64,000 nt of DNA from Methanoplanus endosymbiosus (GTDB lineage Archaea; Halobacteriota; Methanomicrobia; Methanomicrobiales; Methanomicrobiaceae). Position numbers and translations under genes: made by a program. Each line of letters begins with the position of its first letter. Position 1 is the first letter of the stretch. The stretch lies in assembly GCF_024662215.1 (NCBI RefSeq), contig NZ_CP096115.1, positions 1,612,001-1,676,000 on the forward strand, given 5' to 3'. The notes below the pieces were generated by a model. The model was not told the DNA's origin. It ran no database searches and worked only from the letters and a program-made list of their open reading frames with translations. Positions 2,418 through 44,189 of the stretch are shown piece by piece.

Positions 2418-4441
2418 AATATTGAATTTTGATAGCCATTTTTCAGCTGAACGTCCACCTTCAAGCAAGTTTATGAATTCTTCCAAATACTCCAATCTCT
2501 TACTGTCAGAATGTACAATTTCTTTATGTGCATATGGCCTCACCAGTTCACTTGCACTGCTGATCTCTTCAGCTGTAATATCCTGTATCTCTCGAATAAA
2601 ATCTTTTATGTCATAGAGAATTTCTCTCACATAAGTTTCATTCTCAAGGTTTGAGAAAATGGCCATTAGTGCACCATATTGTGCCATTTCGTTTGTAGTT
2701 CTATTTCTTCCGGTTCGTCTTCGTATGTGCATTCTACTCCACCTATGGCCGCGTTCTTCAATATTATTATCTCTCATAATGTCAACTACATTACCAAATG
2801 TGTCTTTTACTTCCACAAAAAGTTCATCCATGTGTTTTCTGCAGTTGTTTGTTATTTGCCTTGCTCCGCGGAGTAATTCGCCCCCTTTGGTTACTCCATC
2901 TATGTCAATGGCATTCAGAATGATCTCAAAATCGTCTCTCATATTTTGAGCATTTGTGGTTATCATATCACTTCCATTTTGACTTAAGTGCCTGCCAACC
3001 CTTAAAGTAATCCTCACTTTCTCAAACCATTCCCATATCTTTTGAATTTTAGAATATTGGGAGTTTATGCCTGCATTGTTTGTGATATCATCTAATTTTT
3101 CAGAAAACTCCTTAATTTCACATACGTTAACTTTATGGGCCATATTCCATTCTAATATTTTGTGGGCCATTATTTGGACATCTAAAATTCTATTCATTAT
3201 TTCAAAGTAGGGTAAACCAAATGGGTAATTTGAACTCCTTTCACGGCAGATAAGAAGATGCTCTATAGCAAGAATAATCCATTTTTGCTCTGCGAAGAAT
3301 ATATCTTTTTCAGAACCATGATGTTTTATTGCACTGAGGTCCCCTTTCATTTTCTTGATTTGACTTAGGATCCTCATTTTCACAATATCTTTGCGAAAAG
3401 TAGAGTATCTGGTTTTAAAAATGGTTTTACCAAGATTTTTAACGAAGTGATACTGACAAATTTGGTGCTTTACGTCAGGAAAAATCTCAAATGCTGCATC
3501 TCGAATCTGCTTGCTCATATCTCTAACAATGACTATTGGGTCCCCCAATAGTGATTTTAAGTTATTCAGGAAGATTTTAACATATTTTTTGCTCTCTGTT
3601 GGTATAATTTGGGCATCCATTGTAATTCCTGTATCCCCGTCCTTTGCCATAAAAACAATTTCATTTCCTGCTTCTCCGGTCCCATCCAGGTGAAGCTTTG
3701 CGCCACCTTCTCTCTCAAAAAAGGACTTCATTTGAGGCATATGTCTTTTGTGCAGAGCATAGAACCTTAACAAAAGCTCTTTAGACAGATTAGATATTTC
3801 ACCAGTTGAAATACTAATTCCTCGAGATAAAAGAATGGTTCTTATTTCATCTCTTTGGAAATCAAAAAGAAATCGCAATAAACCAACAGCAACCATTATT
3901 TTAGTATCAAAGTTGCGTCCGGCAGGGCATATTTGATTGAAAATTGAGATTAATGGTTCATTACACGCACCATGTTCTTTACAGTATTTATAAACTATAT
4001 TAAACCTGATCTCTCCCGATAATGTTTTAACTATTCTTTTAGCTGCTTTTTGGACGTAGAGTCTTTTTTTACAGACTGGGCATCTGTTATGGATTTTTTT
4101 GAGTTCTTTGGGTGGGAAAGGGAAATAGAGTACGTTTTTTTTCCAAAGTCGTAGGTAATACCTACACTCTTAAGGGATTCACGCGAGACAGGGTGTCCCA
4201 TATTTTCCAACATATCTAATACCTCATTTGGAGTTAATTCTCTTTCAGTTAGTTGATTGGCTAAAAAAGAAAAATGGTCTTTATCTATAGTAAAATTATT
4301 TGGAAAAGATGGATCAGTCCCTAAAGGTCGGATGTATCGCTGGACAACTTTTCCATCAATTCGAACAGATTCAACTTCAGCAAAGTAGGTCTTAACATCT
4401 CCATTTTTGTTGTGACGAGTGTATTTCCGTATGTATGACAC
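2394..4441 (-). CDS. IS transposase in two frames joined by a -1 shift at an A8 run
   Basis: The first frame starts at a GTG (4441) and encodes an N-terminal region (YIRKYTRHNKNGDVKTYF...) ending at a TAG at 4031-4033. The -1 frame is open across that stop and carries conserved transposase sequence: FPFPPKEL, a CPVCKKRLYVQKAAKR zinc knuckle, the DDE-type motifs HLDGTGE and VRDMSKQIRDA, and CQYHFVKN. The frames overlap around GGAAAAAAAACG (A8 at 4142-4135). A -1 shift there gives one protein of about 682 residues. Programmed slippage is well known in IS elements, but a one-base mutation is equally possible. Confidence 0.85.
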
Positions 4442-4446
4442 CCATA

Positions 4447-4460
4447 GTGATATATATCAC
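4447..4460. promoter_or_regulatory. Palindromic TATA element upstream of the transposase
   Basis: GTGATATATATCAC is a perfect 14-bp palindrome only 6 bp upstream of the transposase GTG. It contains a TATA-like core. It could be an operator or transposase-binding site. It is too close to the start to serve as the TATA box for a transcript beginning upstream of that GTG. Confidence 0.4.
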
Positions 4461-4553
4461 CACATATATGAAACCATTGATTTAGAATTGAAAGTCAGAT
4501 CAAAATTTAAAAGGAATGTAGGCTGTTTTGAGAGGGATTTAGGGAGTTATAAA

Positions 4554-4577
4554 TCCAACTCTATTTTGACGCCATAG
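4554..4577 (-). repeat. Right terminal inverted repeat of the IS
   Basis: Read on the minus strand it starts CTATGGCGTCA and ends GTTGGA. It pairs with the left end at 2394-2417. Confidence 0.85.
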
Positions 4578-4585
4578 CTTTAAAT
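4578..4585. repeat. Right target-site duplication of the IS
   Basis: CTTTAAAT is identical to 2386-2393. Beyond it the interrupted SpoIIAA-like reading frame resumes. Confidence 0.9.
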
Positions 4586-4778
4586 CGTATGCTGTAGTAT
4601 CTCATGTAGATATGAAATTCTATCACGGTGACCGCATAGATGAAGCATGGGAATGGATGAAAGCTGAGTGAAAACCGGATATGCAGGAATAAATGTCGAT
4701 AAAAACGGGAAGAGGAAAATAAATTTTTAAGAGTGCAGGAGTGGATTTTGGATTGTAGAATCCAGGAAAATAAGCTTA

Positions 4779-5417
4779 TTATTTATTATCCATTACTGAT
4801 ATAGGAATTCCAATACTATCAGTGCCACATATCCGTACACCGTTTTTTTCATCAGAACCGACTACAACCGAAATATTTGAGTTCCAGGACATATTAACTG
4901 CATTTTTATCAGGAACAAGGTCAATTAAAACAGTTCCCGTACCGCCTCCCACAGGCATAAAAGTATGATCCCTGCCAACTTCGATCATGGCACTCCACTC
5001 AGATTCATATTCCGCAGGAGTCCATGTTGCCACATAATATTCAGGAGGCATTGCTCCGGTTTTATTCTCCGGAAAACTGCTTGTTATATCTGAAATATGC
5101 CATCCGTCAGGGATATAGAAAGCAACACCGCCCCAGTCTTCCGGATCTATCTCAATCCCGGCAACAATCTGAATATTTTCAGGAATTCCTTCGCTTCCTT
5201 TGATAAATAGAGTTCCTTTGGCTGAGGTGGTTAATTCTGTAGAATCAGTATTTACACTAAATCCCCTGATCTGAATTATGTCTTTATTTTCAACCGGATT
5301 ATCGCCGGAATTGTTTCCGGACAGAATGCCTGAATAAATTACAGCAACAGAAATAATTACCAGCACTACAATTACAGAAAGTATAGCATATCCGGATTTA
5401 TTGTTCATATTAATCAT
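4779..5417 (-). CDS. Membrane-anchored extracytoplasmic protein of unknown function
   Basis: This 212-residue protein starts with a short basic segment and one long hydrophobic helix (AILSVIVVLVIISVAVIYSG, about residues 11-30). A soluble domain follows, rich in Gly, Asp and aromatic residues. The pattern is an N-terminal anchor, possibly a type IV pilin-like signal, with the rest outside the cell. I recognise no catalytic motif and no family. It is a single gene on the minus strand downstream of the IS-split gene. The hydrophobic N-terminus and normal composition make it likely to be real. Confidence 0.65.
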   Translation of the reverse strand: MINMNNKSGYAILSVIVVLVIISVAVIYSGILSGNNSGDNPVENKDIIQIRGFSVNTDSTELTTSAKGTLFIKGSEGIPENIQIVAGIEIDPEDWGGVAFYIPDGWHISDITSSFPENKTGAMPPEYYVATWTPAEYESEWSAMIEVGRDHTFMPVGGGTGTVLIDLVPDKNAVNMSWNSNISVVVGSDEKNGVRICGTDSIGIPISVMDNK

Positions 5418-5944: not shown

Positions 5945-7238
5945 TATAATTTATCAAACAAACAATCCAACTAATCCAACTTTCGACTGTAGAAGAGCGC
6001 CTAAAATAAGTAGAGTCTGAATTAATATTATATAATTTGTATTTTTTCATAAAATCTACAATTACAGATTTCTCTGGCATCTCACCTGTTTTAAAATATG
6101 ATATTAATATCTCATTAAATAATTCATGAGAAAGAATACATCTTACATATTCAAGCTGCCTTTGCTTGTATGGAAGTTTTAGATAACGAAAACCTTCAGC
6201 AGTTAAAAAATATCTTCTTTCTCCATTAACCTGTTTTTTTCCAATAATTCCTAAATATCTTCCGGCATTAGTATAATAATCAGTTTGTCGATTGTCAAAG
6301 GCATATTTATTTGTAATATCTTCCTTATTGAGGTCTTCTTTCATTAGTAATTCACACAGATTGATAATACATTTGAAATTATCTGCTTGCGGAAAAGGTA
6401 CCTTTGGTTCCTCAACACTCGTTACTGAAGAAGATATTTTCTCTATCTCACTTACACTAATACTCATATCCTCAATGGAGTAATCTTTCTGCTTTTTCAG
6501 TTTAAGTGAATTATAATGGTTTGGATTATCAAAGGCGTATTCGTATAAACTGAAAACACTATTGGAATAAACCAAAAAAACCAGTTTAATTTCCTTATCT
6601 ACCTTATCCTTCCAGACTCTATACGGGTAATAAATCTGTCTTATTAAAAAATCATCAGATATATCACATTTTGCTTCAATAAGAGTTAGATAATTTATGC
6701 CTTCATATGCCGCATCTATCTCAATTTGTGAGTTTTCCACTTGAATTTGAACATTAGTGTCTGCTTTAATTGTACTTGAAATTTCAAAACTAAATTTATC
6801 TGTTCCCATTCTACCGCAAACAGTAGGACATAATTCAGAATCTTCTAAAAAGTCCTCAAAAACACCTGAAATTAAAGCAAAATTTAGAGCAATACTTTCA
6901 CCTTTGATATTTTGAGGAGTTAAACTTTGGATATGGGATGGGACTTCTATGTGAAGAACCTCTTTTTCGATGACCTCAAACTTATGATAAGTATTGATAT
7001 GAGATATTATGTAATTCCCACGAGTAATTGGCAGAATCGAAAGATTATTATTAATAAATAAATCAGGTAAATTGATACTATGGTCAAACTTTGCCATCAA
7101 TCGGGGTTCTCGGAACTCACGTATCTCATCAGCAGAAATAATATATTTCCCATATCTCTCAACTTCCTGTAGGATATTATATTTTTCAAACAAATGTCCC
7201 CAAGCGATCTCGGTTTTTGTTTTCTTTGACTTAGCCAT
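5934..7238 (-). CDS. Type II restriction endonuclease, putative partner of the adjacent adenine methylase
   Basis: This 434-residue protein overlaps the methylase stop by 8 bp, so the two are translationally linked. SQIEIDAAYEGINYLTLIEAK contains D-x(n)-E-A-K, the PD-(D/E)XK signature. NLPDLF, ILPITRGNYIIS and RQIYYPYRVW resemble a family annotated as type II restriction enzymes. The very AT-rich codon use differs from the flanking genes and points to recent transfer. The recognition site is not readable from the sequence. A Dam-like partner suggests a GATC-type site, but that is inference. Confidence 0.75.
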   Translation of the reverse strand: MAKSKKTKTEIAWGHLFEKYNILQEVERYGKYIISADEIREFREPRLMAKFDHSINLPDLFINNNLSILPITRGNYIISHINTYHKFEVIEKEVLHIEVPSHIQSLTPQNIKGESIALNFALISGVFEDFLEDSELCPTVCGRMGTDKFSFEISSTIKADTNVQIQVENSQIEIDAAYEGINYLTLIEAKCDISDDFLIRQIYYPYRVWKDKVDKEIKLVFLVYSNSVFSLYEYAFDNPNHYNSLKLKKQKDYSIEDMSISVSEIEKISSSVTSVEEPKVPFPQADNFKCIINLCELLMKEDLNKEDITNKYAFDNRQTDYYTNAGRYLGIIGKKQVNGERRYFLTAEGFRYLKLPYKQRQLEYVRCILSHELFNEILISYFKTGEMPEKSVIVDFMKKYKLYNINSDSTYFRRSSTVESWISWIVCLINYNDS

Positions 7239-42832: not shown

Positions 42833-43669
42833 TCAACCATTCAGGTTTAAAGCCGGCATGATAATACGGAGAATATCCTCCGGATGTGACACAACAGCAG
42901 AAGACTCTTCAAGCATGAGATTTACAAGCTCACAATCCCCGACAGTCCTGAAATCTGTTCTGAGCGATATTACCTTTTTGCCCTTTGCATAGGCATAACC
43001 CATCTCCCAGGCAGTGCCGGAGTCTGCATCTGCACCATCAATTACAGCCACCACAATGTCAGACTCCTCAAGGGCTGAGAGATTTCTCTCAAATATTATT
43101 CTCATTCTCTCATCAGCACGCTCTTCTCCATCATCCCCGTGCTCCTGCGGGAGGAAGACCTCACAATAGTTATCCCGGAGAATTTTTGCAACCTTCAGAT
43201 TGAACTCCTGCTCCGCCTGTGAGAAGAGAGGGGCTGCAAGATATATTCTGTACTCTGCAAATTCCTTCACATCAATGGCAGGGATATCAGGAAAACGTGA
43301 TAAAAACGCTCCCCTTCCGGGGATTTTTATGTCACTGTAATATGTCATATCAACCCCGCATGACGGCGATGAATCAACGCCGAGAATGAAGAGCGGCAAG
43401 CCTCTGCCCCGTATAATTTCACGGACATCCTTCTCCCTCTCATCAAGAATTTCAGAAAATTCAGCATTGTTAAGCGACTCGGAGAAGTTTGTCGGTTCCC
43501 TTCCCAGGCCCAGATATTCAGTCTCAGGGCATGGCAGAGGCACAGTCTCAATGCCAAAAGACTCACATCTCTTAAGGCAGCGTGAAAATATCCTTACATC
43601 CTCAGCGCTCGTAATGCCATTCGCTCTCAGAGAAGGATTTATTATGCAGGGGCAGACCAGAATATACAT
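42833..43669 (-). CDS. Fusion of a TudS/DUF523-like Fe-S domain and a nucleoside 2-deoxyribosyltransferase-like domain
   Basis: Starting at the ATG at 43669 gives 278 residues; the longer frame to 43852 runs through the divergent gene. Residues 1-135 match DUF523/TudS: VCPCIINPSLRANG, LPCPETEYLGLGREP and DSSPSCGVD supply the conserved cysteines for a cluster. Residues about 140-278 match nucleoside 2-deoxyribosyltransferase: YRIYLAAPLFSQAEQEFN, ALEESDIVVAVIDGADADSGTAWEMGYAYA. TudS desulfurates thiouracil, and the second domain handles nucleoside glycosidic bonds. A role in salvage of modified or thiolated nucleosides is an inference. It is divergent from tsr3 with only 25 bp between starts. 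Confidence 0.8.
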   Translation of the reverse strand: MYILVCPCIINPSLRANGITSAEDVRIFSRCLKRCESFGIETVPLPCPETEYLGLGREPTNFSESLNNAEFSEILDEREKDVREIIRGRGLPLFILGVDSSPSCGVDMTYYSDIKIPGRGAFLSRFPDIPAIDVKEFAEYRIYLAAPLFSQAEQEFNLKVAKILRDNYCEVFLPQEHGDDGEERADERMRIIFERNLSALEESDIVVAVIDGADADSGTAWEMGYAYAKGKKVISLRTDFRTVGDCELVNLMLEESSAVVSHPEDILRIIMPALNLNG

Positions 43670-43694
43670 CAATAAAGTCTGGTGATACATAATT

Positions 43695-44189
43695 ATGACA
43701 ATGCCGCTTTTTGCATGGCGGGACAATTCCTGTGACCCAAAGGTATGTTCAGTGAAGAAACTCCAGCGTGCGGGCCTTATAAGGGTATTTCCGGCGATGA
43801 AAAAGATCCCAAAATCGACAATAGTCCTTGACCCGACAGCTGAACAGGCCATATCTCCGGCAGACAGAATCGCACCCTCCCTTACAGTGCTGGACTGTTC
43901 ATGGGAGGTTCTGAATACATCAGAACTTGAAGGCTGGAAGAGAAGAAGGGCGCTACCGTTTCTGGTTGCGGCAAACCCCGGACATTTCGGGAGGCCGTTT
44001 ATGTTAAACTCAGTTGAAGCCCTTGCCGCAGCTCTGTATATACTTGGAGAGAAGGATCAGGCAGAGACAATACTTGCAAAATTCGGATGGGGACTGAGGT
44101 TTTTAGAGGTCAATAAAGAACCGCTTGACGAATATGCACAGGCAAAGGACTCATCCGAGATAATAAAAATCCAGTCCTATTACTACTGA
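43695..44189 (+). CDS. tsr3: 16S/18S rRNA aminocarboxypropyltransferase Tsr3 (DUF367)
   Basis: The 164 residues carry FAWRDNSCDPKVCSVKKL near the start, then IVLDPTAEQAISPAD, LDCSWE, and RALPFLVAANPGHFGRP, which are Tsr3 signatures. The enzyme transfers the 3-amino-3-carboxypropyl group from AdoMet to a conserved pseudouridine derivative in small-subunit rRNA. An alternative ATG lies two codons downstream (43701). The short divergent gap implies leaderless or very short leaders. Confidence 0.93.
   Translation: MTMPLFAWRDNSCDPKVCSVKKLQRAGLIRVFPAMKKIPKSTIVLDPTAEQAISPADRIAPSLTVLDCSWEVLNTSELEGWKRRRALPFLVAANPGHFGRPFMLNSVEALAAALYILGEKDQAETILAKFGWGLRFLEVNKEPLDEYAQAKDSSEIIKIQSYYY

Follow-up and report, generated by a model that had tools for sequence, protein, structure and literature searches.

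Desulfidases of the TudS type (DUF523, PF04463; PDB 6Z92) have 4-thio-UMP as their best substrate, preferred more than 2000-fold over the free base, and Tyr18 of TudS is seen to stack on the base in docking models. A TudS-type domain also forms the N-terminal part of the two-domain RudS proteins, followed there by a tRNA-binding domain, DUF1722, and the CD3072 family (NF045597) consists of uncharacterised, TudS-related putative desulfidases. Nucleoside 2-deoxyribosyltransferases (NDTs), such as CtNDT and 7o62 of Desulfotalea, have no Fe-S domain. The active-site residues of CtNDT include Y7, D82, E88, N118 and M120, and D62 of this enzyme has been blamed for the poor fit of a 2′-OH and hence of ribonucleosides; a D62N variant keeps about half of the efficiency and hydrolysis is increased. 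AvNRT, the N-ribosyltransferase of Archaeoglobus veneficus, works as a stand-alone protein and accepts only ribonucleosides, chiefly those of purines. Each half of the protein described here has known relatives. Consistent with the first-pass annotation, which knew of no characterised enzyme with this combination, no paper pairing TudS or DUF523 with a deoxyribosyltransferase was found in the searched literature, which takes in only a minority of the subscription literature.

The gene is located at positions 42833..43669, on the minus strand, of the window, the 64,000-nucleotide stretch of the Methanoplanus endosymbiosus genome that was analysed, and encodes a protein of 278 amino acids. The ORF begins at an ATG, and the codon immediately 5′ of the same methionine is a stop in several orthologues. 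Profile searches of both halves bear out the original reading of the gene as a fusion of a TudS/DUF523 domain to a deoxyribosyltransferase, with an N-terminal half that is divergent and scores under the family cut-offs. The fusion of a CD3072/TudS-related half to an NDT half is confirmed. An assembly artefact or a chance ORF is ruled out, as the complete fusion is present in ~19 genus groups.

The N-terminal domain (residues 1-139; 43253..43669, minus strand) carries a predicted [4Fe-4S] site. Its best sequence match is NF045597 (E 2.7e-13, 49.9 bits against a curated equivalog cut-off of 130), and it is also matched by PF04463 (E 5.6e-5, 23.6 bits against a gathering score of 34.7). Because both scores are under the cut-offs, we treat this half as divergently related to both families and as belonging fully to neither. 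All 47 aligned members are matched by NF045597 and 33 of the 47 by PF04463, with one relative (G047) scoring 34.7 against PF04463 and flagged above the cut-off. When the profile of the N-half was aligned by hhalign with the true TudS domains of RudS proteins from the same order, the probability was 95% (E 3e-8) and the first-Cys/Arg, C-P-E and S-P-x-C-G motifs were superposed. The RudS proteins resemble the fusion in being two-domain proteins with an N-terminal TudS-type domain but are encoded by a separate gene and have DUF1722, not an NDT, as the partner; a profile search gave no match to DUF1722 in the fusion protein. Full-scoring PF04463 proteins are present in over half of the relatives, and those read are RudS-like, whereas the fusion is the only protein matched by PF04463 in the window genome. 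AlphaFold2 modelled the N-half with a pLDDT of 97. The TudS structure 6Z92 was absent from the 50 best Foldseek matches of this domain, though it is in the PDB.

The three cysteines that, by equivalence to TudS, would hold a [4Fe-4S] cluster are invariant in all 55 aligned orthologues. These are Cys8 (TudS Cys10; 43646..43648), Cys47 of the CPE motif (TudS Cys43; 43529..43531) and Cys104 of the SSPxCG motif (TudS Cys104; 43358..43360), all read from the minus strand. Glu49 and Ser101, the counterparts of the TudS catalytic residues Glu45 and Ser101, are likewise present in 55 of 55, as is Arg15, which is positioned seven residues after Cys8 and corresponds to TudS Arg17. The fusion differs from TudS, in addition to its low PF04463 score and its NDT partner, at two positions. 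That of the catalytic Ser103 is unconserved (Thr in 16, Ala in 13, Ser in 12, Val in 8 and Cys in 6 of the 55 orthologues), and that of Tyr18 is occupied by Ala16 in 53 of the 55. Tyr18 is also missing from the aligned CD3072 rows, from which the fusion is set apart by its relaxed Ser103 position, its fused state and a longer stretch after the first motif. This stretch, shortened in most stand-alone CD3072 proteins, contains a further cysteine, Cys35 (43565-43567, minus strand), that is invariant in the fusions. From these residues the N-domain is predicted to bind an Fe-S cluster and to have desulfidase activity, with 4-thio-UMP an unlikely standard substrate given the unconserved Ser103 position and the replacement of Tyr18 by Ala.

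The C-terminal domain (residues 140-278; 42836..43252, minus strand) matches PF05014 with E 1.2e-27 and 96.8 bits, above the cut-off of 28.8, and Foldseek places it on solved NDTs, the best match being 7o62 (TM-score 0.83 by target length, 37% identity). With 7o62 and CtNDT it shares the fold, the active-site Tyr, the nucleophilic Glu, the sugar-binding Asp and the Asn-x-Met motif. Tyr143, Asp216, Glu222, Asn250 and Met252, the counterparts of CtNDT Y7, D82, E88, N118 and M120, respectively, are invariant in the fusions. Asp216 is the NDT residue that binds the 5′-OH, Glu222 (43004..43006, minus strand) is the predicted nucleophile, and Asn250 and Met252 belong to an NLM motif. The first-pass annotation had made the hypothesis depend on the conserved cysteines and on the catalytic Glu of the second domain being retained across orthologues; Cys8, Cys47, Cys104 and Glu222 are invariant in 55. 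The Asp retained in 7o62 and CtNDT (CtNDT D62) is, in contrast, replaced in every fusion. At this position, Asn196 in the window protein (43082..43084, minus strand), the 56 fusion rows have His (27), Asn (24) or Leu (5) and none has Asp, whereas Asp is found in 4 of 4 f9 rows, in 17 of 21 rows from Methanosarcinaceae and in 13 of 14 rows labelled as bacterial.

A protein encoded in an Archaeoglobus-type genome (L168) shares 54% identity with the C-half and contains published AvNRT peptides. One of these, CEAEREFNIKVAEFL, is present exactly, around position 972 of the L168 locus, and the protein is therefore AvNRT or a near copy of it. AvNRT has the NLM motif and the catalytic Glu in common with the fusion but differs in having Phe7 in place of Tyr143 and Asp62 in place of Asn196; Tyr is present at the Phe7 position in 56 of 56 fusion rows and Phe in 4 of 4 f9 (Archaeoglobus-type) rows. 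N-glycosyl activity is thus predicted for the C-half. With the Asp replaced in all fusions, the enzyme may lean to cleavage over exchange, and to ribonucleosides, to judge from this one residue. A preference for deoxyribose would fit Tyr143, which is typical of NDTs, but the loss of Asp points the opposite way. An NMP glycosidase of the DNPH1 or MilB type is less likely for the C-half, as the matches are weaker and Asn250, a 5′-OH contact in CtNDT, is kept. Purine specificity through a base-contacting Asp (CtNDT D111) was also considered, but this position is variable in the fusions and allows no conclusion.

AlphaFold2 modelled the full-length protein with a pLDDT of 91 and a pTM of 0.87. Comparison with a congener gave a dN/dS of about 0.15 in each half, showing purifying selection on both.

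The query is matched at E≤0.001 by all 46 high-quality relatives, a few of them, from family f2, over the C-half only, and almost every sampled genome of the order Methanomicrobiales encodes the fusion. A peptide-pattern scan of a species genome collection, a method that reaches close relatives only, returned full-length fusions from records of Methanomicrobiales, one labelled only as Euryarchaeota, and the C-half alone from Methanolobus and various bacteria. Among 295 genomes of the phylum no fusion was found outside Methanomicrobiales, the CD3072-type and NDT-type proteins there being separate ORFs. Within the loci examined from Methanosarcinales, the stand-alone CD3072-type and NDT genes are unlinked and tsr3 is not adjacent. 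Two f2 genomes, L128 (3045-3611) and L129 (2949-3398), encode an NDT without a TudS-like half. In L128 this gene is directly divergent from tsr3, and in L129 an ORF that by eye is flavodoxin-like intervenes. In a tree, both NDTs group, with moderate support, next to an f2 fusion within the clade of fusion proteins, and both share the change at position 196, so that these two genomes have probably lost the N-half. In a single-contig genome (G036:C1:2163981-2164911) and in a Methanogenium cariaci record (L057, around 6285-6330), the coding sequence of the fusion is divided between two frames, possibly as a result of sequencing error, pseudogene formation or a frameshift.

The neighbouring gene, tsr3 (DUF367, 16S rRNA aminocarboxypropyltransferase; 43695..44189, plus strand), is not part of the enzyme and is identified by PF04034 (E 1.5e-43) and by NF002621, above its cut-off. 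As first described, it is divergent from the fusion gene with the two starts 26 bp apart. The same divergent arrangement is present in 55 of 57 loci, a set that includes some genomes reached twice, with the starts mostly 26-80 bp apart, and no further gene family occupies a constant position in the majority of them. With starts so close, the two promoters probably overlap. TATA-like stretches of the fusion gene and tsr3 are present in the window at 43652-43700, near each other's start codon. The spacing of promoter elements is too non-uniform across loci for a common arrangement to be claimed. This pairing of domains has become fixed in most members of an archaeal order, where its gene adjoins one for rRNA modification. 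Both halves retain most of their catalytic residues, and a single NDT residue is altered throughout. The fusion offers a direct way into the role of the CD3072-type TudS relatives and a way to ask how methanogens dispose of thiolated nucleosides.

The reading that we favour, with confidence only just short of even, is that of a desulfidase-like Fe-S domain coupled with a nucleosidase or transferase whose substrate is a thiolated nucleoside or one modified in another way. In the N-domain, Cys8, Cys47 and Cys104 would ligate a [4Fe-4S] cluster with one iron left free, and this iron would take the thiocarbonyl sulfur as in TudS, assisted by Glu49 and Ser101. In the C-domain, Glu222 would attack C1′ of a free nucleoside to form a sugar-enzyme intermediate and release the base, in a site completed by Asn250 and Met252 from the neighbouring subunit. 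As the usual NDT Asp is replaced by His, Asn or Leu, the intermediate would probably pass more readily to water, as in a nucleosidase, and a 2′-OH may be accommodated more easily. The joint task of the two halves would probably be to remove a nucleoside or base that arises from RNA turnover and carries sulfur or some other modification, and the two steps may perhaps act on one and the same molecule, a thiolated nucleoside. It is doubtful, but a tentative possibility, that the protein is in full a bifunctional enzyme in which the desulfidase and a nucleosidase-like NDT act one after the other on a single thiolated nucleoside; the substrate would not be 4-thio-UMP, and there might be a tie to rRNA or tRNA modification through the tsr3 locus. 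The persistence of the NDT in the f2 genomes that lack the N-half, the loss of Ser103 and Tyr18 and the ability of AvNRT to function alone would also be expected if catalysis lay with the NDT half, as a base-exchange enzyme or a nucleosidase of purine or general specificity, and the TudS-like half were an Fe-S module for regulation, redox sensing or structure, with no desulfidase role. We consider this rather unlikely, as the retained cluster cysteines, Glu49, Ser101 and Arg15, and selection of equal strength on both halves, look like those of an active catalytic site.

The first-pass annotation had proposed sequential cleavage and desulfuration of thiolated nucleosides. The loss of the NDT Asp fits the cleavage part of this proposal; the specific version is weakened by the absence of Ser103 and Tyr18 and by f2 genomes that keep an NDT without the N-half, and cleavage of the glycosidic bond before desulfuration is not needed, as TudS acts best on 4-thio-UMP. 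A salvage pathway of this kind, in which the NDT half converts thiouridine to thiouracil and the TudS half then yields uracil, would be in keeping with the intact cluster motifs, with a lean to cleavage, with the presence of ThiI, the maker of s4U, in 46 of 46 high-quality relatives and with a canonical uracil phosphoribosyltransferase gene (upp) in most searched f1 genomes, that of the window included. It is nevertheless unlikely. In seven of the eight f2-f6 genomes searched upp had no match, and in the eighth only a weak, sub-cut-off match, so that a universal role in thiouracil-to-uracil salvage is not well supported; moreover, TudS strongly disfavours the free base, its Tyr18 and Ser103 are missing here and purines are preferred by AvNRT, the nearest characterised relative of the C-half. 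Fusion merely for shared expression or folding, with the halves acting on unrelated substrates, would agree with the observation that, outside the order, none of the examined loci has the two stand-alone genes linked. This is very improbable, given retention of the fusion across an order and the confidently predicted single-chain arrangement. In one f8 genome (G198, locus L133), a stand-alone CD3072-type protein is encoded ~1.4 kb from a gene that by eye is of the NcsA/TtuA type and tRNA thiolation-like (ORFs 2458-2967 and 4383-5291).
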